NCBI GenBank assembly: GCA_003554665.1
Contig: PWGY01000219.1
Location: forward strand, 1-34,736
Direction of reading: 5' to 3'
DNA length: 34,736 nucleotides
DNA from: Bacteroidales bacterium
GTDB taxonomy: Bacteria > Bacteroidota > Bacteroidia > Bacteroidales > UBA7960
In this document: positions 159 to 15,589 of the stretch, in pieces
How the letters are laid out: the number at the start of each line of letters is the position of its first letter
Position numbering within the stretch: the stretch's first letter is position 1
The notes under the pieces: generated by a model
The model's input: the letters and a program-made list of their open reading frames with translations, nothing else
What the model was told of the DNA's origin: nothing
The model's database searches: none
Made by a program: the position numbers and the translations under genes

Positions 159-1829
159 TTAGTCTTTGTGTTTGAAATGGTTTTCCATGACCTGTTTGAA
201 GTCTTCCATGGTCATGTCATAATGTGGTGTGAGGGAATGCTTCCCGGGAAAGTTTTCCATGTGAAGGGTGCTGGTCGGGAAGGCAAAGCGTACGCCCAGC
301 TTCTCTGCCAGCTTTACAATTTCAATCAATACTTCATGGCGGCAACGAAGCTCCTCTGTCCAGGTGGGTACAGCAAAAAAGATGTAAAAAATGATTTTCA
401 GGGAGAAATCTCCCATTTCGTTGAACTCCACCAGGTAAAAATCTTTTCTGGTTTTGGGGTGCTTCTCCACGATTTTTCTCAATCCTTCGACAAATACCTG
501 AATCAGGTCAGGGGGTGTGTCATAGGTGATGGCAATGTGCATGAAGAAACGCCTGAATTGCCGCAGGCCGTGGTTGTCAACCACTGAGTCAGCCAGCCTG
601 CCGTTGGGAACGTAGGTCAGTGAATTGCGGAAGGTTCTGATCCTTGTTGAGCGGAAGCCTACCTCTTCCACTGTGCCATCCAGTTCTCCGCTGGTAATCC
701 AGTGTCCTACGGAAAAGGGTTTGTCAATAAAGATCATTAAAGAGCCGAAGAGGTTCTTCAGGGTGTCCTGCGCGGCCAGTGCCAGTGCCAGTCCTCCGAT
801 GGACAAGCCCGCCAGCAGGGCAGTGATGTTTACGTCAAGGTTTTGTAAAATAAACAACCCTCCGATGATCACCACAAACACCCGCAATACTTTTCTTATC
901 AGCGGTACAACCTGGTTGTCGAGGCTGGATTCCTTCTGTCCCGCAATTTTTTCCAGGTAGAGCGAGAATACATCCACCAGCTTGTAGAACACCAGCATCG
1001 CAAAAAATGGCAGGATTGCCCTGAAGGCGAAGGTGAAATATTTTGCCAGTTCAACCGGTAACTGGAGCACCGGAAAAACAACCATTACAAATACAAAAAC
1101 CATAAACAGGCTAAGTGGCCTGGCCACCGGCAAAAGGTAAGGCCTGACCAGCCGGTCATAACCCATTTGGGATGCCCCTTTGTAAAGAGCTTTATTCAGT
1201 ATGAAAGTCAAAATTTTATGGATGATAAAACTGACCAGTATGAGCAATAAAATACCGATGTGCTGCCAGAGGTATAATCCAAGGAACATATGGGTGCCGG
1301 CCCGGGGAATCAGGTCAATCAGAAGGTCAGGGCCAAAAGGGAAAACTTCCCGGTGTAAATGGTCAATCTGCTGGATGCTTTCCGGGCTGTAGAGCCACAG
1401 GTCATTCCGTTTGGCAAGATATATTTCCGGCAGATATTGGGTTAAGGTATAGCGGTGTTCGTTGTGTATGGTATCGGTGTAATCAGGATCTTCCGGGGCT
1501 TCATCCGGGCTGATGAAATATCCCTTTCCATCAAGTACCTGTTTAAGTTTGATTGCGGCTTCGCGCGCTTCTTCCAATGTCAGTTCCGGGTGCAGAAAGG
1601 CCTGGGCAGCCTTCTCAGGATCAAAGCTCCCCGGCTGCAAAAAGTGCAGGTGGGTTGTCAGGCTGCTTCTCGGGTTGCTGAGATCCACGGGTACTTCTTC
1701 CGTTTCAGCCCATAATGCAGTGTCAGCTATCTGTGTGTCTTCCGGCTGAATTTCCTCAGCCACTGCGGCTTTGGAAGGAGGGATAGAAAGCATTGCCAGC
1801 AGCAAACAAAAAACCAAATGATTCAACAT
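159..1829 (-). CDS. MscS-family mechanosensitive ion channel with periplasmic N-terminal domain
   Basis: This 556-residue protein is a small-conductance mechanosensitive channel, which releases solutes through the inner membrane when tension rises after osmotic downshock. A signal peptide (about residues 1-22) is followed by a soluble, probably periplasmic region to about residue 180. Hydrophobic segments lie near 185-210, 230-258, 265-290 and 310-360. The last is the MscS pore helix, rich in Ala and Gly (AGLSIGGLALALAAQ), followed by FGSLMIFIDKPFSVGHWI and the beta domain with a YVPNG motif, all typical of the family. The C-terminal domain extends to 556, so the protein is longer than the roughly 286-residue E. 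coli MscS. The gene is monocistronic in appearance, has its own promoter at 1924-1954, and is bracketed by hairpin repeats. The exact ion preference cannot be read from the sequence. Confidence 0.93.
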   Translation of the reverse strand: MLNHLVFCLLLAMLSIPPSKAAVAEEIQPEDTQIADTALWAETEEVPVDLSNPRSSLTTHLHFLQPGSFDPEKAAQAFLHPELTLEEAREAAIKLKQVLDGKGYFISPDEAPEDPDYTDTIHNEHRYTLTQYLPEIYLAKRNDLWLYSPESIQQIDHLHREVFPFGPDLLIDLIPRAGTHMFLGLYLWQHIGILLLILVSFIIHKILTFILNKALYKGASQMGYDRLVRPYLLPVARPLSLFMVFVFVMVVFPVLQLPVELAKYFTFAFRAILPFFAMLVFYKLVDVFSLYLEKIAGQKESSLDNQVVPLIRKVLRVFVVIIGGLFILQNLDVNITALLAGLSIGGLALALAAQDTLKNLFGSLMIFIDKPFSVGHWITSGELDGTVEEVGFRSTRIRTFRNSLTYVPNGRLADSVVDNHGLRQFRRFFMHIAITYDTPPDLIQVFVEGLRKIVEKHPKTRKDFYLVEFNEMGDFSLKIIFYIFFAVPTWTEELRCRHEVLIEIVKLAEKLGVRFAFPTSTLHMENFPGKHSLTPHYDMTMEDFKQVMENHFKHKD

Positions 1830-2378: not shown

Positions 2379-5300
2379 TTGGCTACAGCACGAAGATTTG
2401 GCACGTTCAGCGGGGTTTTTACCCCCTCCATTTTGTCTATTCTCGGGGTGATCATGTACCTGCGTCTTCCGTGGATTGTCGGAATTGGCGGGCTGTGGAC
2501 TGCACTGGGGATAATTTTGCTGGCCCATGTGATCTCAATTGCCACCGGGCTGAGTGTTTCTTCAGTTGCCACTGACAAAAGGGTGGAAACCGGAGGCAGT
2601 TATTACATTATCTCCAGAAGCCTGGGGCTGCCCATCGGTGGCACCCTGGGGGTGGCGCTTTTCATTGGCTTATCATTCAGCGTGAGCTTATACTTGCTGG
2701 GTTTTGCTGAAACCTTGCTGTCGTATTTCGGATTTGCGGTAACCCTGCAGAATATCCGCATTGCCGGTTCGGTCACCCTTTTGTTGGTCACGGCTGTAAC
2801 TTTTATAAGTACCTCTCTGGCGATCAAGACCCAATACCTGATCATGGCTGCCATCGGGCTTTCGCTGGTATCGGTGTTTTTCGGTAGTCATGAATACGTG
2901 CCCCGGCAACCCCTGATGATACCGGTTGATGGTGCCCTTCCATGGATTACCCTGTTTGCCATATTTTTCCCGGCGGTTACAGGTTTTCAGGCAGGGGTCT
3001 CCATGTCGGGTGACCTGAAGGACCCGAGGAAGAGTATTCCCCTGGGTACCATCTCGGCTATCCTGTTTGGTATGCTGGTGTATATCAGCCTTGCAGTTTT
3101 TTTCGCCCTGACTGTCAATCGTGAAATACTGATCAATGATCCGCAGGTTCTGTTTCAGATTTCATTGGTACCCCAGCTTGTAATTGCCGGAATACTTGGT
3201 GCCACACTGTCGTCAGGGCTGGTCAGTATTATGGGGGCGCCCAGGATTTTGCAGGCGGTGGCCATGGACAGAATCCTGCCTGCTTTCTTCTCGAAAGGTT
3301 ATGGTGCATCGAACGAACCACGGAATGCCCTTGTGGTTGCATTTTTAATCGCACAGGCGGGCATCCTGATCGGAGAGCTGAATACCATTGCCCGCATTGT
3401 GACCATCTTTTTTATCATCATTTATGGCTTTCTCAATATTACCTATACCCTGGAAAGCTGGGCCGGGAGCGATTTCAGACCTTCTTTCAAAATTCCGCGT
3501 GTGGTGAGCATTATCGGTGCCCTGGCCTGTATTGTGGTCATGATACAGCTTGACCTGCTGGCACTGATCATTGCTTCCGTTTTGCTAATCGCACTGTTTC
3601 TCTTTCTGAAAAAGAAAGAACTAACACTGCAGAGTGGAGATACCTGGACAGGGGTGTGGTCTTCGCTGGTAAAAACAGGGTTGGGAAAGTTGAGTATAAG
3701 TGGGGAAAAATCCCGCAACTGGCGTCCCAATGTGATGTTGTTTAGCGGCGGGGAGAAAAACAGGCCACACCTGATAGAGATGGGAAAGGCCCTGGTGGGA
3801 AAGATGGGTGTGTTTACGAATTTCGAACTGACTGAACAACCAGGAGGTGATATCCTGTTCGGTTTGAAGGAGCAGGAGGTTCCTGCCGCCCCTTCATTGA
3901 AAACCGGTGTCTTTACCCGACGTCATACCTGCCGTGATATTTATGAGGGTATTGATGTGATATCCAGGGTTTACGGGTTTACCGGTTTTGAGCCCAACAC
4001 GGTGCTGATGGGGTGGGCAAGGAATTCGAAACAACCGGAAAAGTTTGCCCGGTTGCTGACCAATCTGAAGCGGCAGGATTATAATTGTGCTTTTCTCAAA
4101 TATGACAAAGAAAAAGGCTTCGGAAACTACAGGAAAATCGATTGTTGGTGGAGCGGGAAAGGAAGGGAACTGTCGTTGATGATTTTCCTTTTGCGATTTA
4201 TCACTTCCAGTGAGCGCTGGAGGACGGCGCAGATACGTGTTTTGGTGGTGAATCCTGACAGCTCAAAAACGGATCGTTTTTACAGCCTGATTAACCAGCT
4301 GCTCGAAAACCACCGCCTCAAAGCTGAAGTGAAAGTGATTCAGAACAGCGTGGAGCAGCGTTCTTTGCGTGATATTATCAAAGGAGAGTCATGGCAGAGC
4401 GACCTGACGTTGATGGAACTGCCCGACTTCAATTTCAGGGAACCGGCCACAACCATTGATAAGGCCAATGCCATTGCTGAAAATGTGCAAACAACCCTCT
4501 TTGTGACCGCCTCATCGTTTTTTGATGAATTCAGTGTGCTGACGCCAACCCCCGAAGTTATGGAAGATGCTGAAAGTGAGCTCCAGCGTCCTTCAGCCGA
4601 TTTGCTGAACCGGTTGAAGCTGTCATCGCGTGAAATCATTGCCAATGAGGTGTATAACATCGGCCGGTCTGCGGCCCGTTTTCTGGAAAAATATTATGTA
4701 CAGTGTCCTGAACACATCCTGGAAAAAAATCAGCGATTTTGTCGCGAGCTGGAAGGTTTTTCCCTCAGAACAATAGACTCTTTAAAAAAGGCAGCGGAAA
4801 AACAGAGTCCGGAGCATCGTTCCCGGGAATTTCTTAAAGTTTTGAATGATTTTTCATTCCATTCTCAGCGGCACATCCAGCTGATGCGTACCCGGCGGAT
4901 AATTGAGACCCGGAAAATGCTGGAGACAGCCAATAAAGAATATCTGGATGAATTACGGGCAATGATGAATGTGATGCCGGAAAAGATCCGCATCAGGTTA
5001 AGCCGGAAAGAATTTGTGTTCAGGAAACATGACAGGCTTCAGACCAGGCTGTATAAGGCGGGCAAGATTGTCGTCGCTTCACTGACCGGCAAACCGGTTG
5101 CTCATAAAATCAATGTTATTCCGGCAGCCCGGTTTTTCCTGTACCACAACAGATTGCAAAGCATTCACCGCTTCATGGAGGACTTTGCTATATATACTTT
5201 TTCGGAAGTGGCTGAAGTGCGGCAGCTGTTCAACGGAATTCATGAACTGATCGAAAAATCAAGGTTGGAAACCGGGAATCGGTCCAGAAACCTGGAACGG

Positions 5301-7529
5301 ATTCGACTGGAACGAAGCCGACTTGCCGCGAAGGTGCAGGTGATTGACAACGAGGGGAAAAGGTTCTATTACAATGCGGGTCAAAAGTTATTTGATGAAC
5401 TTGTCAACGACCTGCAACAGTTTAATTTCCACCTGGAAAGTACCGGAGCCAATATCAGAAGCAGAAACTTCAGGGTTTATTTTAAGCAGGATCCCATGCT
5501 GGTTAAAGAAATAGCAGGGTTTGCGGATACCTGGGAGAAAAACCTGGGGGGATTCATCAATAAGGCTATTCTTGACTTTTACGTGTTATCACTGAAGAGC
5601 AGAATCCATGCAAAGATTCGTAAATATTGCCGTGATTTTCGTGCCTCCCTGGAGTCAGTTATGGTGAAGCAGGTTGAGCAATATGAACATTTTGCCGGAG
5701 AATTGTTGTCAGAGGAAGAGATCCGTTTAGCTAAAATACAGCGGATTGAGCATTCAGGTTTTCAGGCTTTACCGGTTCATGCAGCTTTCCGGAAACTGTA
5801 TGCTGAAATCCGGGAAGTGTTGCTCGATATTCCTGATAAAATTGAGATCAGTGGGGAGCAACTTGATGAAAAGATCCATGATAATGCTTTTGTGGAAACA
5901 GAAAGGGTTGTGGTCAGTTTCCGCAAAACCATCGATTATTACATTGGTGCTGAACTCATTGACCATACGGCCAAAAAAACCCACGAAGCTGAGAAGCAGT
6001 TGCAGCAAAGTGTGTCTGCAATCAAAGACATGGTTCGGCTGCTGAATTTCAGCCTTGACAACGAAAGCAAAGAAGATGATTCAGATCAGCAGGATTACCG
6101 TATTCAGCAGTCGAGAATGCTCGTTAAGAATTTTCTGCAAAAGATATCCGGAGAGAAAGAAAAGATCCGGAAAGTGGGAGAAAGTGTGGAAGAGGTTTTT
6201 GAAAATGGATTAAAGAAAGGGTTTGAGCCATTGTCCTCCTCCACCATCAGTAAAACCAGCATGGCGGTGAAGAAGAAGGTGAAAGAAGCTGAGAACGATG
6301 CCCTGACCAACCGTTTTCAGCGCAAACTGACCAGGATGCAGGATAAAGCACGGGATCGTTTTGTGGATGTGCTTTACAGCAAGAGTGAAGGACAGTTGTG
6401 GGTGAGCCATGTGGAGCAATCAGCCCGGCAGGGGTACGGATCAACCCAGGATATGCTTTCGTTTGTGGAAGCCATTACTCCAGCGCCGGGCCTGATGAAA
6501 GAACTTCCATTTTACTATGCGTCCCTGTTTTCGGGGCAGTCAGGAGCAGGAGAGGATTTCTGGGTCGGAATGCACAGGGAGGTTGCTGATTGTTCCCGCG
6601 CCATTCAGCGTTTTAAATCAGGGTTTCCGGGAGCACTGATCATTACCGGAGAACGGAGTTCGGGAAAATCTTCCCTTTCCAGAAAGATGGCGGAACAGCA
6701 TTTCGGTAAAGAACAGATCCATTCTTTGCGCGCTCCTCAGTCGTGTTCAGCTGATCCGGAGCTGTTTACCCGTAAATTACAGGAGTCATTGGGTGTACGG
6801 AACAATAATATTGAGGATGTTTTCCGCGCACTGCCTGCCGGTAAGGTAATTATCATCCAGGATCTGGGGCTCTGGTGGGAAAGACGACCGGGCGGCGATG
6901 TCGTGGTTGAAATAATCAAGGGGTTGATCGACCGTTTCGGACACAAATGTCTTTTCATTCTCAATGTGAACATTCATGCCCTTCGGCGCATTGACCGGCA
7001 AACCATGCTGATGCGTTATTCGCTGGCCACGGTGAATTGTGCGCCTTTTGATGCCAGGGAGCTGAAGGACATGCTTCTGCTCAGACACCAGGCAGGAGGA
7101 ATGAAGCTCAAGTACAAGAAAAAAGATGAAGACCGGATGAGTGCCTGGGATAAGGCCAGGCTATTTAACAAACTGTTTGATCTTTCGTATGGGAACCCCG
7201 GCACAGCAACCATTCTTTGGCTTGCATCCATCAAAAAAGTGTCAGGTAAAACATTGACCGTGGATTCTCTGTGGCTGCCGGATCCGGCTGTTTTTGAACG
7301 GCTGACCCCCGAGCAATGGTTTTATGTGCATCAGTTTGTGGTAAACCGCCGCTTTTCCATTGAAAAGCTGGCGCTGAACATTGAAGTTTCGAAGGAAAAG
7401 GTTGCAGCGGACATTCGCACATTGGTCAGGGCAGGCGTACTAACAGAAAAATTTGACGGCGTTTTCGCCATTCGTCCCGGTCTGGATCTTTATCTGGTTG
7501 ATCTTTTAAAAGCAAACAAACGATTATGA
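2379..7529 (+). CDS. SLC12-like cation-chloride cotransporter fused to a helical region and P-loop ATPase
   Basis: This 1716-residue protein starts like a cation-chloride cotransporter. Residues 8-38 read GTFSGVFTPSILSILG and on through MYLRLPWIVG. GGSYYIISRSLG (72-83), FFPAVTGFQAG with SGDLKDPRKSIPLGT (196-224), and GAPRILQA (286-293) are family hallmarks. About twelve hydrophobic segments end near 410. An SLC12-type cytoplasmic domain follows (NWRPNVMLFSG near 447, KIDCWW near 586). Residues of about 750-1400 are charged and helical with no domain I recognise. A P-loop GERSSGKSS lies at 1424-1432, a Walker B-like VIIIQD ends at 1495, and a winged-helix-like end covers about 1655-1716. The start is TTG: an in-frame TAA at 2364-2366 rules out anything longer, and later ATGs would cut into the first membrane helix. 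The stop overlaps the next gene by ATGA. The membrane part is certain as to family; the ATPase role is inferred. Confidence 0.9.
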   Translation: MATARRFGTFSGVFTPSILSILGVIMYLRLPWIVGIGGLWTALGIILLAHVISIATGLSVSSVATDKRVETGGSYYIISRSLGLPIGGTLGVALFIGLSFSVSLYLLGFAETLLSYFGFAVTLQNIRIAGSVTLLLVTAVTFISTSLAIKTQYLIMAAIGLSLVSVFFGSHEYVPRQPLMIPVDGALPWITLFAIFFPAVTGFQAGVSMSGDLKDPRKSIPLGTISAILFGMLVYISLAVFFALTVNREILINDPQVLFQISLVPQLVIAGILGATLSSGLVSIMGAPRILQAVAMDRILPAFFSKGYGASNEPRNALVVAFLIAQAGILIGELNTIARIVTIFFIIIYGFLNITYTLESWAGSDFRPSFKIPRVVSIIGALACIVVMIQLDLLALIIASVLLIALFLFLKKKELTLQSGDTWTGVWSSLVKTGLGKLSISGEKSRNWRPNVMLFSGGEKNRPHLIEMGKALVGKMGVFTNFELTEQPGGDILFGLKEQEVPAAPSLKTGVFTRRHTCRDIYEGIDVISRVYGFTGFEPNTVLMGWARNSKQPEKFARLLTNLKRQDYNCAFLKYDKEKGFGNYRKIDCWWSGKGRELSLMIFLLRFITSSERWRTAQIRVLVVNPDSSKTDRFYSLINQLLENHRLKAEVKVIQNSVEQRSLRDIIKGESWQSDLTLMELPDFNFREPATTIDKANAIAENVQTTLFVTASSFFDEFSVLTPTPEVMEDAESELQRPSADLLNRLKLSSREIIANEVYNIGRSAARFLEKYYVQCPEHILEKNQRFCRELEGFSLRTIDSLKKAAEKQSPEHRSREFLKVLNDFSFHSQRHIQLMRTRRIIETRKMLETANKEYLDELRAMMNVMPEKIRIRLSRKEFVFRKHDRLQTRLYKAGKIVVASLTGKPVAHKINVIPAARFFLYHNRLQSIHRFMEDFAIYTFSEVAEVRQLFNGIHELIEKSRLETGNRSRNLERIRLERSRLAAKVQVIDNEGKRFYYNAGQKLFDELVNDLQQFNFHLESTGANIRSRNFRVYFKQDPMLVKEIAGFADTWEKNLGGFINKAILDFYVLSLKSRIHAKIRKYCRDFRASLESVMVKQVEQYEHFAGELLSEEEIRLAKIQRIEHSGFQALPVHAAFRKLYAEIREVLLDIPDKIEISGEQLDEKIHDNAFVETERVVVSFRKTIDYYIGAELIDHTAKKTHEAEKQLQQSVSAIKDMVRLLNFSLDNESKEDDSDQQDYRIQQSRMLVKNFLQKISGEKEKIRKVGESVEEVFENGLKKGFEPLSSSTISKTSMAVKKKVKEAENDALTNRFQRKLTRMQDKARDRFVDVLYSKSEGQLWVSHVEQSARQGYGSTQDMLSFVEAITPAPGLMKELPFYYASLFSGQSGAGEDFWVGMHREVADCSRAIQRFKSGFPGALIITGERSSGKSSLSRKMAEQHFGKEQIHSLRAPQSCSADPELFTRKLQESLGVRNNNIEDVFRALPAGKVIIIQDLGLWWERRPGGDVVVEIIKGLIDRFGHKCLFILNVNIHALRRIDRQTMLMRYSLATVNCAPFDARELKDMLLLRHQAGGMKLKYKKKDEDRMSAWDKARLFNKLFDLSYGNPGTATILWLASIKKVSGKTLTVDSLWLPDPAVFERLTPEQWFYVHQFVVNRRFSIEKLALNIEVSKEKVAADIRTLVRAGVLTEKFDGVFAIRPGLDLYLVDLLKANKRL

Positions 7530-8254
7530 ACCTTTTGCTGTTTTTGGTTGCCGGCTTATTGGTGTTTGGTCTATTCAGGTTGCTTTCAAGGGCCGCCAGG
7601 ATGCTGATAAGTCGCAAAGCTCTTCGCAACAGGATACTGGCTCTTCTGCCGGTTGCGGAATTGCTGATCTGGATCGGTTATGGATTTTGGGGGCTCAGCA
7701 TTCTCTTCGGGGGTTTGGTATATTATGATCTCATTTTGTGGGTGGCCGTTGTATTGTTAATTGTTGCGCTTGCCTGGTTTGTGTTCCGGGATTTTCTGGC
7801 CGGGGTTTTACTGAAGGCCGAGAGGTCGCTGGAGGCAGGACGTTATATTAAAGCCCCTTATGCTGAAGGGTATATCCGATCGCTGGGCGCCCGTTCGGTG
7901 GTGCTTGTCAATGAGAAAGGGGAGATTATGAGGGTTCCTTATTCCCGGATCAATAAAGAGATGATCGTACTGCCTCCGGAAAATGATGAAAGCCTGCCTC
8001 ATCACCTTAAACTTTCGCTGCCGGCTATCCGTGATCCTGAAGTGTATAAACGTCTGGTCGAAAAAGAACTAATGGCCATGCCATGGATCACCGGATCTTC
8101 ACCTTCGGTCGATATTGTGGAGGAGACAGATGGAAGATACCGGCTCCATCTGACGTTTTATACCCATATTCGGAGCCAGGGTGCCCGCGTGGGGGAAAAG
8201 ATCAAAAAAGTATTATCGGTTGCGGCTGACAGTGAATTCAATCAGCTTCCTTAG
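7526..8254 (+). CDS. Small MscS-like membrane protein coupled to the transporter-ATPase
   Basis: This 242-residue protein has hydrophobic segments near residues 3-22 and 40-98. The end of the last (FRDFLAGVLLKAER) and the following SLEAGRYIKAPYAEGYI with RVPYSRIN resemble the pore-helix end and beta domain of MscS channels. The usual Gly/Ala-rich pore helix is poor, so it may not form a standard channel. Its ATG lies inside the stop of the preceding transporter-ATPase gene (ATGA, 7526-7529), implying translational coupling and a shared job. I infer a partner subunit or release valve for that transporter. Its last 42 bases overlap the 3' end of the convergent prenyl synthase gene. MscS-family membership is likely; the function is inference. 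Confidence 0.75.
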   Translation: MNLLLFLVAGLLVFGLFRLLSRAARMLISRKALRNRILALLPVAELLIWIGYGFWGLSILFGGLVYYDLILWVAVVLLIVALAWFVFRDFLAGVLLKAERSLEAGRYIKAPYAEGYIRSLGARSVVLVNEKGEIMRVPYSRINKEMIVLPPENDESLPHHLKLSLPAIRDPEVYKRLVEKELMAMPWITGSSPSVDIVEETDGRYRLHLTFYTHIRSQGARVGEKIKKVLSVAADSEFNQLP

Positions 8255-12985: not shown

Positions 12986-15589
12986 ATGCGGAAAGCCTTT
13001 TTTTATATAGTACTGTTGTGGCCTTTGGCGGGTTTTGCCCAGTTTGAGGATGATTTCAGCAACGGGGATTTTACACATAATCCGCCGTGGGCCGGGGATC
13101 ATGATGAATTTATTGTGGATCAGGGGATGTTGCGGCTTTTCAGCGAAGGAGGGGGTGTTGCATGGTTGTCTACATCCAGTAAGGTGATCGGTGATACCCA
13201 GTGGGATTTTTGGGTGCGAATGGCTTTTGTGCCATCAGACAACAACCATCCCAGGATTTACCTCGTCAGTGACCGGCCTGATCTGTCAGGAGCACTGAAG
13301 GGTTATTTTATCCAGATCGGGAAAACCGGGACTGATAATAAGCGCCTGTATTTTTGCCGCCAGAACGGGAAGGAAGTGGAGGTGCTTCTGGAAGGCTCCA
13401 TGAACCTGGCCACCACTTCCAATAACCATTTAAGAATCAGGGTTACACGGGATGCGATCGGGAACTGGAGTTTTTATGCTGACCCCTCCGGGGGGCATCT
13501 TTTTTTACCCCAGGGAACTGTATATGATACCACATTTTCCCGGACGTCGTGGTTCGGGATCACCTGCACTTATACCACCACCAACAGCCGCCGGTTTTAT
13601 TTTGATGACTTCCGGGTGGGAGAGATACTTCCCGAGCCACCTCCCCGGGTAACCAGACTGGAAGTGGTTTCCGGGGGCAGTCTTGATGTATATTTCAGCC
13701 AGGCCGTGGATAAAACCAGCGCCGGTTTGGTCAATAATTATCTGGCAAGCGGTGATGCCGGAAGGCCCCTGGTGGCTGCCCCTGACCCTGAACGACCTCA
13801 TGTGGTCCGCCTTTTGTTTGGCCGTAATTTTCAGGAAAACCATCTGTACACCCTTACCGTATCAGGGGTTAAAGGTGCCGGAGGACAGGTAATGGAGTGT
13901 TATTCCGGACCATTTGTAAATTATATGTCTCAACGTTTCGATGTGGTATTCAATGAACTGATGGTTAATAGCCAACCCGTGGTTCAGCTTCCTGCTCATG
14001 ACTGGCTGGAATTGTTTAACACAACCCAGGTTCCAATCAATCTTGAAGGCTGGACTTTGAAATACGGCAATAGTTCGCAGATACTGCCAGAGTCAGTCAT
14101 CCCTCCCGGGGGGTACCTGGTGCTGACTACCGAAACGGCCCTGCCTTTCCTGGAAGATGCCGGAAATGTGGCAGCCGTACCCGGGTTGGGGGTCAATGCC
14201 CTGCCCATCGGCGGGTCCTCCCTTGTGCTGTACGATGATGCAGGGAAAATGATCTCGCATGTCAGTTATTCAGACGCATGGTACAGAGACCAGTCGAAAA
14301 AAGGGGGCGGGTGGTCATTGGAGAAAATTGACCCTTTTAATTTTTGTCAGGGAGCAGGGAACTGGAGGGCTTCAGTTGATCCCAGGGGAGGAACACCCGG
14401 GGAGCCAAATTCTGTGCTGGCAGAAAACCCCGATGTATCTGTGCCGGAGTTGTTGCGGGCCGGTTATGTGGACAGGCATACGATCATCTTGCATTTTGAC
14501 CAGCCCATGAACGATGACGGATTGGGCAGCATAAACAATTACATGGTCAGCGGGGGTGTCGGCAACCCCGTGTCAGCTTTTCCTGTGGATCCTGCTTTTT
14601 CATCCGTTCAGCTGGAACTGTCAAGCCCACTATCAGAGGGCGTTGTATACCAGGTGGAGGTGGCAGAAGGCATCACAGATTGTGCTGGCAACAAACTTCA
14701 GAATTACGTGGTTCCGGTGGCGGTTCCTTTGCAGGCAGCGCCATCGGATATGGTGATCAATGAAGTCCTGTTTAATCCGCCTCTTGGCGGGGCCCGGTAT
14801 GTGGAAATCTACAACCGCAGCGAGCATGTGTTTGACCTGAAAGACTACCTGATTGCCTCAAAGGATACCTTTACCGGCAATCTGTTGGATCCCCGCCTGA
14901 TCAGTGAGGAGAGTCTGCTGATGTTTCCGGGCGATTTTGTGGTATTGAGCAATAACGTGCAGGGGGTGCTGCAGACATTTTATACCAATAACCCCAATGG
15001 GTTTGCCGAAGTGGAGCGTCTGCCGGGCATGACCAACAGCGGTGGGCTGCTGGTGTTGTCCTGCAGAGGGCATGTGACCATTGATAAGCTGACCTTTTCT
15101 GAGGACATGCATCTGCCCCTGCTCATTGATCTCAAAGGGATTGCCCTGGAACGGCTGCACCCCGGCAGGCCGTCAGAGGACAGGCACAACTGGCATTCTG
15201 GTGCTGCATCCACGGGTTTCGGAACTCCCGGCTACAGAAATGCGCAACATCAGGCCTCGCCTGCTGATGCCGGGAGCCTGTTTGAGCTGAGTTCCCCGCT
15301 TTTCAGGCCTGATGGCAGCGGGGCAGATGATGTGGTGCAGGTTTTCTACCGGATCGGTGAGCCTGGTTATGTGGCCAATGTGCTTGTTTTTGACCGTTCC
15401 GGAAGGGAAGTGAAACAACTGGTGAACGGAGAGGTGCTGGCGGTGGATGGAGCCTTTACCTGGGACGGAACCACCAATGGCGGGCAAAGGGCTGCGGTCG
15501 GGATGTATGTGATCTTCCTGGAAGTTTTCAATGCCCGCGGGAAAGTTCATACTGCCAGGCTTCCTGTGGTGTTGGCCGGAGAGTTTTAG
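12986..15589 (+). CDS. Secreted multi-domain protein with two lamin-tail domains
   Basis: This 867-residue exported protein begins with a signal peptide (about 1-18, ending GFAQF). Residues of about 20-215 look like a lectin/laminin-G-like beta sandwich (DDFSNGDF start, FYFDDFRVGE end). Two Ig-like segments with the pattern VYFSQAV.. or LHFDQPMN.. lie near 220-310 and 485-585. Each is followed by a lamin-tail domain: FNELMVNSQ with DWLELFN (about 318-420) and INEVLFNPP with YVEIYN (about 588-700). The C-terminal 100 residues are FlgD-like (FTWDGTTNGG, VGMYVIFLEVF). No enzyme motif is visible. Such proteins are typical surface proteins of Bacteroidota; the FlgD-like end may serve type IX export, but I cannot confirm a sorting signal. 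The gene diverges from asd and converges on comF. Confidence 0.85.
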   Translation: MRKAFFYIVLLWPLAGFAQFEDDFSNGDFTHNPPWAGDHDEFIVDQGMLRLFSEGGGVAWLSTSSKVIGDTQWDFWVRMAFVPSDNNHPRIYLVSDRPDLSGALKGYFIQIGKTGTDNKRLYFCRQNGKEVEVLLEGSMNLATTSNNHLRIRVTRDAIGNWSFYADPSGGHLFLPQGTVYDTTFSRTSWFGITCTYTTTNSRRFYFDDFRVGEILPEPPPRVTRLEVVSGGSLDVYFSQAVDKTSAGLVNNYLASGDAGRPLVAAPDPERPHVVRLLFGRNFQENHLYTLTVSGVKGAGGQVMECYSGPFVNYMSQRFDVVFNELMVNSQPVVQLPAHDWLELFNTTQVPINLEGWTLKYGNSSQILPESVIPPGGYLVLTTETALPFLEDAGNVAAVPGLGVNALPIGGSSLVLYDDAGKMISHVSYSDAWYRDQSKKGGGWSLEKIDPFNFCQGAGNWRASVDPRGGTPGEPNSVLAENPDVSVPELLRAGYVDRHTIILHFDQPMNDDGLGSINNYMVSGGVGNPVSAFPVDPAFSSVQLELSSPLSEGVVYQVEVAEGITDCAGNKLQNYVVPVAVPLQAAPSDMVINEVLFNPPLGGARYVEIYNRSEHVFDLKDYLIASKDTFTGNLLDPRLISEESLLMFPGDFVVLSNNVQGVLQTFYTNNPNGFAEVERLPGMTNSGGLLVLSCRGHVTIDKLTFSEDMHLPLLIDLKGIALERLHPGRPSEDRHNWHSGAASTGFGTPGYRNAQHQASPADAGSLFELSSPLFRPDGSGADDVVQVFYRIGEPGYVANVLVFDRSGREVKQLVNGEVLAVDGAFTWDGTTNGGQRAAVGMYVIFLEVFNARGKVHTARLPVVLAGEF

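Follow-up and report, generated by a model that had tools for sequence, protein, structure and literature searches.

The locus described here raises the question of what is done in a bacterial cell by a protein that unites a secondary transporter with an ATPase, and by the channel-like gene that follows it. The locus lies in contig PWGY01000219.1 (assembly GCA_003554665.1, Bacteroidales bacterium), of which the whole stretch of 34,736 nucleotides was analysed (hereafter the window). It comprises an open reading frame (ORF) of 1716 aa, in which a transporter of the cation-chloride cotransporter (CCC, SLC12) family is joined through a long helical rod to an AAA+ ATPase, and an adjoining gene coding for an MscS-like membrane protein. 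The analysis suggests that the fusion and its MscS-like neighbour form an undescribed machine controlling cell salt and volume.

The transporter-ATPase fusion and its partner gene

The fusion is real and old. Indeed, a search with residues 720-1716 as query gave 65 related proteins, 61 of which (the window's own included) are 1683-1763 aa long and carry a permease domain; the other four are P0041, P0046, P0064 and P0065. Furthermore, a scan of one genome per species, in which 80 of 106 matches were kept, yielded 76 loci; the scan is biased towards fused forms, as one of its two patterns falls within the transporter part. A single ORF matching all four profiles is present at 68 of these loci, namely 61 that are complete in one frame (1670-1821 aa from stop to stop), six with a start cut by a contig end, and L054, in which the permease is broken. 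The other eight are cut by contig ends (six loci) or split into consecutive ORFs (L050 and L070). Overall, 61 loci encode the whole four-part fusion, 12 are cut by contig ends and three have the parts in consecutive ORFs, so the two halves are not always separate genes. Halves that are separate genes in every homologue were one of the outcomes that, according to the initial annotation (made from the sequence of the window), would speak against the fusion.

The fusion is found in records labelled Bacteroidota, Pseudomonadota, Myxococcota, Latescibacterota, Delongbacteria, Cloacimonadota, Rhodothermota and Neomarinimicrobiota, and the records that carry it include the named strains Perlabentimonas gracilis and Plebeiobacterium sediminum. 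In a tree of 65 chosen AAA+ domains, the 38 CCC-fused rows all lie on one side of a branch with 100/100 support. Isolate names of metagenome-assembled genomes (MAGs) from Siberian soda-lake sediments occur at 33 of the 76 loci, with a possible sampling bias (sample names according to the available parts of PMC6146748 and PMC6704655). Some individual cases were also recorded. At L050, L054 and L070 the fusion is broken (within the permease in L054) and the MscS-like gene still lies downstream; these breaks may be natural splittings or frameshifts. At L064 and L071 the fusion occurs in two MAGs labelled Roseobacteraceae, by horizontal transfer or by mis-binning. Genomes G016 and G018 each have, besides one copy free of the transporter, two matches whose frames are as long as the fusion (1708-1750 aa).

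The transporter part is a member of the CCC family by homology over both the permease and the C-terminal domain. The permease matches PF00324 (E-value 2e-43), NKCC1 in the PDB (E 1.5e-71) and TIGR00930 (E 4e-110). This last match stays under the model's 953-bit cut-off, as does every TIGR00930 match in a sample of 247 genomes drawn evenly from the phylum to which genome G001 belongs (G001 included). The family profile matches NKCC and KCC structures of the PDB with E-values down to 5e-99, and the cytoplasmic domain matches, by profile, the solved CCC C-terminal domains 8ste, 6vw9 and 6vwa (E 1e-7 to 3e-7), while PF03522 gives only 13.1 bits on this domain, under its cut-off.

Conservation of the ion and nucleotide sites was counted over 129 sequences (118 distinct, with the cut loci and L054 included) aligned to NKCC1, the K+-site and Na+-site residues of NKCC1 being those listed in the available part of PMC7035313. 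The K+ site is retained, with its tyrosine of transmembrane helix (TM) 3 and its proline and threonine of TM6: Y383 of NKCC1 corresponds to Y105 (113 of 118; four gaps, one F), P496 to P198 (115 of 118; three gaps) and T499 to T201 (112 of 118; three gaps, three other residues). The Na+ site is likewise retained, with the Ser-Ser pair of TM8 (S613/S614, here S278/S279) found in 115 of 118 sequences at each position and A610 (here A275) also in 115. A tyrosine equivalent to NKCC1 Y686, which we take to be a chloride-site position, is present in all 118 sequences. The window protein also carries the motif ATLSS, a mark of CCCs with a Na+ site, bacterial ones included, according to the available part of PMC11641049. 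Because of the conserved K+-site and Na+-site residues and of ATLSS, the sequence favours Na+-K+-Cl- symport by the transporter part.

The rod was modelled with AlphaFold 2 with a mean predicted local distance difference test score (pLDDT) of 85.4 and a predicted TM-score (pTM) of 0.74. Foldseek found no match to this model at E ≤ 0.001, and hhalign gave a weak sign of internal duplication in the rod. Downstream of the rod, the AAA+ core is followed by a C-terminal winged helix, and the predicted structure, which contains a nucleotide-binding fold, is closest to ORC/Cdc6, with RFC, NSF D2 and TnsC as other neighbours. Apart from the Walker residues (Table 1), an asparagine examined as sensor 1 (N1531) is present in 107 of 118 fused proteins, R1657 and R1658, both in the winged-helix part, show a conservation of 90% or more, and the D+2 position of Walker B is E in 61, G in 46, A in 9 and D in 2 of the 118. 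No Pfam AAA model exceeds its cut-off on the window protein. Among the rod-AAA+ proteins scanned, only the generic Pfam models AAA_16 (L081) and AAA_22 (L099) exceed theirs on the rod-AAA+ part and no NCBIfam model does; AAA_16 and others are also precomputed for some of the 65 proteins obtained with residues 720-1716. No family-specific Pfam or NCBIfam model was thus found for the rod-AAA+ family among the members scanned. The alignments used were A1/A2 (64 of these 65 proteins), A3 (33 loci, the window and three proteins) and A6 (42 of 70 partners and P0066).

The initial annotation had described an SLC12-type transporter and its cytoplasmic domain, followed by a long helical region and then by an ATPase whose marks were a P-loop, a Walker B-like motif and a winged-helix-like end; it had also suggested that the added part might sense cell volume or nucleotide and gate the transporter. 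The profile and structure matches bear out the layout, the lysine and aspartate of the two motifs prove almost invariant, and the end is that of an AAA+ protein with a predicted ORC/Cdc6-like fold; a fold devoid of a nucleotide-binding domain, named there as a contrary outcome, was not what the prediction gave. The fused architecture therefore stands, but the MscS-like partner, the transporter-free forms and the antiporter fusion had been overlooked.

Table 1. Features of the locus, with positions in the window
Feature	Position	Strand	Description or basis
Fusion ORF, 1716 aa, single intact frame	2379-7529	+	Permease and cytoplasmic domain (1-720), helical rod, AAA+ ATPase with winged helix
CCC/SLC12-type permease domain, residues 1-420	2379..3638	+	PF00324, TIGR00930, match to NKCC1 in PDB
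CCC cytoplasmic C-terminal domain, residues about 430-720	3666..4538	+	Profile matches to solved CCC C-terminal domains
Helical rod, residues 745-1375	4611..6503	+	AlphaFold 2 model: long helices, two small strand pairs
AAA+ ATPase and C-terminal winged helix, residues 1380-1716, stop codon included	6516..7529	+	
Walker A GERSSGKSS, residues 1424-1432	6648..6674	+	K1430 in 118/118 distinct fused proteins
Walker B VIIIQD, residues 1490-1495	6846..6863	+	D1495 in 117/118 distinct fused proteins
MscS-like partner, 242 aa	7526..8254	+	PF00924; hydropathy; family profile against PDB
Full-size MscS channel, 556 aa, divergent, upstream of fusion	159..1829	-	PF00924, E 8e-21

The start of the partner gene overlaps the stop of the fusion by 4 bp. 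Its product has a hydrophobic N-terminal part, according to hydropathy, followed by an MscS beta domain (PF00924, 31.9 bits, over the cut-off of 20.2), and the profile of the partner family matches MscM, MscS and YnaI in the PDB (best E 1.5e-10). A relative of MscS lies directly downstream of the fusion at 71 of the 76 loci. In 38 of these 71 the stop-to-start overlap is exactly 4 bp, and in 62 the gap is at most 50 bp (overlaps included), counts that are biased to short gaps since the start codon nearest to the stop was taken. By comparison, the background density of MscS genes is about one per 587 kb (137 genes in 80.4 Mb of 20 genomes). In six genomes, the unfused CCC match with the highest score has no MscS gene closer than 82 kb, or none on its contig, whereas for three fused genes in the same comparison an MscS gene lies within 4 kb, as the adjacent gene.

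The ATPase part outside the CCC fusion

Among 18 fusion-carrying genomes that were searched, further copies of the ATPase part occur in frames of about 1015-1087 aa. When compared with no rows in common, the profiles of the transporter-free and fused C-terminal parts show homology along 842 columns (E 5e-62), and those of the rod alone along 439 columns (E 2e-19). Ten further loci were inspected, of which five contain complete transporter-free genes (L077-L081, 1011-1068 aa), each adjoined by an MscS gene on the same strand; with the cut genes L082, L085 and L086, which also have one beside them, the total comes to eight of ten. Since the transporter-free relatives stand beside MscS genes and the unfused CCC do not, it is the ATPase part that the pairing follows.

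The same picture was obtained in the phylum sample of 247 genomes. At least 54 of them give a rod-AAA+ match (weak matches included), and at least four have frames of fused length. Thirty loci chosen from this sample were inspected, among them L087 and L090, which are repeats of L049 and L056, and L112, which a contig end truncates. An MscS-like gene adjoins the ATPase gene in 29 of the 30, namely in 4/4 fused forms, 10/10 forms of about 1000 aa, 9/9 short forms (one contig-cut) and 6/7 forms of 1295-1540 aa.

Another ion transporter is joined to the same module in some of these genomes. Indeed, L097-L099 carry an N-terminal sodium/proton exchanger domain (PF00999, E 1e-18 to 4e-21), and L097 matches the CPA2 model TIGR00932 with E 4e-9, under its cut-off. 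The operon of L097-L100 reads [414-422 aa]-[antiporter-rod-AAA+]-[MscS]-[TrkH]; L100 was placed in this group by its operon, as Pfam gives its N-terminal part no score, and no Pfam model matches the 414-422 aa proteins. At L101, the genes for TrkH and TrkA share the strand of the ATPase gene but flank it on the opposite side. A protein search gave eight antiporter-type clusters with PF00999 (that of L097 included), two of which are named 'cation:proton antiporter' (Melioribacteraceae bacterium and Melioribacter). The four antiporter-type rows, L100 among them, form a group of their own with 100/100 support in the AAA+ tree. Thus, the module has been joined to two different transporters of monovalent ions, by two joinings or by exchange. 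The MscS partner, the transporter-free forms and the antiporter fusion indicate that the ATPase part is an independent module. The helical-AAA+/MscS pair is the conserved core, as judged from sequence, and the ion transporter, of which at least two kinds occur with it, is the component that is exchanged. Separately, three forms of 1295-1540 aa (L101, 6062-10459; L102, 3160-7782; L103, 6909-10796) have N-terminal parts that gave no Pfam match, which are possibly other transporters or sensors.

Other features of the window were also recorded. An orthologue of the full-size MscS channel gene lies within 4 kb upstream of the fusion, on the opposite strand, at 16 of the 51 loci with enough sequence, and only in the nearer relatives of the window. 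Just upstream of the fusion gene, at 2017-2330 and 62-103, short repeat units are separated by ACCAACAACC, which has nine copies in the window against 0.11 expected. Finally, positions 12986-15589 code for a probable secreted surface protein of 867 aa, in which lamin-tail, Big_5 and FlgD-Ig/CHU_C-like domains were recognised.

A proposed osmotic controller and its rivals

The reading to which we give an even chance is that the gene pair at 2379-8254 is an ATP-dependent osmotic controller that ties salt uptake to the state of the membrane. It builds on the observed fusion, its domains, the conserved ion and nucleotide sites, the near-constant MscS pairing and the reuse of the module. The genes of its setting (TrkH, antiporter, CCC and MscS) suggest a role in the control of salt and turgor, in line with the soda-lake isolate names at 33 of the 76 loci, for which sampling bias may however account. 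In brief, the first part, a CCC-family Na+-K+-Cl- symporter, would bring salt into the cell; in the second part, ATP binding and hydrolysis in the ORC/Cdc6-like AAA+ head would alter its assembly or shape, a change that the rod would relay to the cytoplasmic domain of the transporter; the third part, the MscS-like membrane protein, would work with the AAA+ part and probably report membrane tension. We infer that the three parts are in contact, that ATP controls flux, and that the MscS-like protein serves as the sensor, the AAA+ head cycling with ATP and coupling, via the rod, the state of this protein to transporter activity. As for the presumed direction of control, a stretched membrane would turn salt uptake off and solute release on, low turgor would do the reverse, and uptake and leak would not run at once. 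More tentatively, the helical-AAA+ part and the MscS-family protein may together be a portable turgor-control module, joined to different secondary transporters and coupling ATP state, tension and salt flux.

Several observations weigh against the osmotic controller. As regards the transporter, residue 204 (window 2988-2990; L502 in NKCC1, presumably a chloride-site position) is Glu in 53 and Gln in 30 of the 118 sequences, which we take to be unusual beside a chloride site. The equivalent of the Na+-site tryptophan W300 is Leu in 108 of 118, and that of N298 is T, S or A among the 118 fused proteins. According to the available part of PMC7035313, five Na+-site residues, W300 among them, are invariant in a group, while Leu at the W300 position agrees with the bacterial signature given in the available part of PMC11641049. 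Because of residue 204 and of the changed N298 and W300 equivalents, ion selectivity is unsure.

The structure model of the C-terminal region has a pTM of only 0.52. The pairing also has gaps: of the five loci where the fusion has no MscS gene downstream, L033 and L040 are at a contig edge, but L021 and L068 (no MscS gene) and L073 (MscS gene divergent and upstream) have no contig end as an explanation. Moreover, L102, of the 1295-1540 aa forms, is the sole locus without MscS among the 30 inspected, and L083 (probably a cut fusion) and L084, both at contig ends, show none.

As regards the partner, a pore helix TM3 rich in Gly and Ala is the pattern of MscS channels. With about 240 aa, the partners of CCC-fused forms are short; they retain the signature of the beta domain, and their PDB matches have E 1.5e-10 and weaker. 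Over 26 aligned columns of the pore helix, the mean fraction of Gly and Ala is 0.18 (0.04-0.35) in 43 of them and 0.31 (0.12-0.39) in 20 partners of the other forms, with overlapping ranges; the two sets are homologous (E 8e-22 over 234 columns). In the partners of the other forms the pore helix looks canonical (consensus ASxGIAVGFASQDILKNIFGGF), and their matches to the solved structures of MscS, YnaI, MscM and MscK reach E-values as low as 6e-23. The partner of the fused clade may, given its lower pore-helix Gly and Ala content, be non-conducting; since it is short, more weakly matched and on average poorer in these residues, the product of 7526-8254 is called MscS-like here and not a working channel.

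These partner data bear on the chief rival of the osmotic controller, which we regard as unlikely, though a serious contender. In that explanation, the AAA+ module has the MscS partner as its main target and is an ATP-gated release valve, and the fused transporter is an ion sensor or a membrane anchor. The constancy of the MscS pairing, with or without a transporter, and the canonical-looking, well-matched partners of the other forms are what such a valve would lead one to expect, but the partner of the CCC-fused clade is the short and Gly/Ala-poorer one (with the overlap just mentioned) and the cation-site Tyr, Thr and Ser side chains of the transporter are kept. By these two features, the transporter appears to be active, the channel to a lesser degree.

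Another explanation, which we hold to be improbable, takes the winged-helix, ORC/Cdc6-like part as DNA-binding and the whole protein as a membrane-tethered regulator of transcription or of the nucleoid that responds to ion flux. It can draw on the presence of the DNA-binding AAA+ proteins ORC/Cdc6 and TnsC among the best structural neighbours and on the conserved arginine pair of the winged-helix part.

A defence or cell-suicide system, with a STAND-like ATPase as sensor and an MscS-like pore as effector, appears very improbable. A sensor ATPase combined with a membrane protein is a common plan of defence systems, and some relatives show nSTAND matches under cut-off or weak PADLOC matches (P0065 and P0041), but no PADLOC family was found for P0001 or P0066, and the CCC and antiporter fusions and the TrkH neighbours point to ion homeostasis. 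Besides, a gene of 412-436 aa next to one of 207-211 aa lies beside the ATPase gene at 10 of the 30 inspected loci, as judged by size and place (only one of these neighbours was identified, as an amidase), and with such recurrent neighbours the ATPase looks vertically inherited.

Lastly, the explanation that neighbouring genes were joined artificially, in sequencing or in assembly, for which the consecutive ORFs at L050, L070 and L054 might be invoked and against which the initial annotation had already argued, is refuted by the complete single-frame fusion at 61 of 76 loci and by the 100/100 clade, and its probability is negligible.

Relation to known systems and significance

Each part of the osmotic controller proposed here has known relatives. 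NKCC1/SLC12A2 and the other CCCs (TC 2.A.30) are homologous to it in permease and cytoplasmic domain, with the K+-site and Na+-site residues kept, but the fusion has about 1000 extra residues (rod and AAA+ ATPase), a near-constant MscS-like neighbour and, relative to NKCC1, changed N298 and W300 equivalents. Unfused CCCs of the same family are common in Bacteroidota (strong matches are mostly about 725-860 aa long); unlike the fusion, they have no ATPase part, and no MscS gene was near the six that were checked. ORC/Cdc6-type AAA+ proteins (also RFC, NSF D2 and TnsC) share the AAA+ core, with conserved Walker A and B in the fusion, and the C-terminal winged helix, whereas the fusion is joined to a membrane transporter and its own Pfam AAA scores are under cut-off. 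The partner genes belong to the same superfamily as MscS, YnaI, MscM and MscK, but the partner of the CCC-fused clade differs from MscS channels by its shortness, its lower mean pore-helix Gly and Ala content and its tie to an AAA+ gene.

In TrkH-TrkA and Kef, a cytoplasmic nucleotide-binding part controls the transport of monovalent cations; the RCK/TrkA domains are Rossmann folds and not AAA+ and, to our knowledge, an MscS partner is no part of the definition of these systems. TrkH is itself a same-strand neighbour of the module at L097-L101, with TrkA in addition at L101. We know of no class of portable ATPase-MscS modules coupled to secondary transporters. No description of the fusion or of the ATPase-MscS pair was found in the open-licence literature searched, nor in the available parts of PMC4301019, PMC10219603, PMC9784483, PMC3924187 and PMC4230888. 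In our view, the system is of a new kind, built from members or relatives of known families in an arrangement undescribed in that literature.

How salt uptake and salt release are kept from running together is an old question of osmoregulation and, for SLC12 proteins, also a medical one. At the locus described here, an ATPase and an MscS-like protein are combined with a transporter of the NKCC type, and elsewhere the ATPase-MscS pair also occurs with an antiporter. The named carrier strains, Perlabentimonas gracilis and Plebeiobacterium sediminum, make the proposal testable. If the module controls flux, this would be a new mode of regulation of secondary transporters and a bacterial model for the control of CCCs, and it would assign a role to the rod-AAA+ family.
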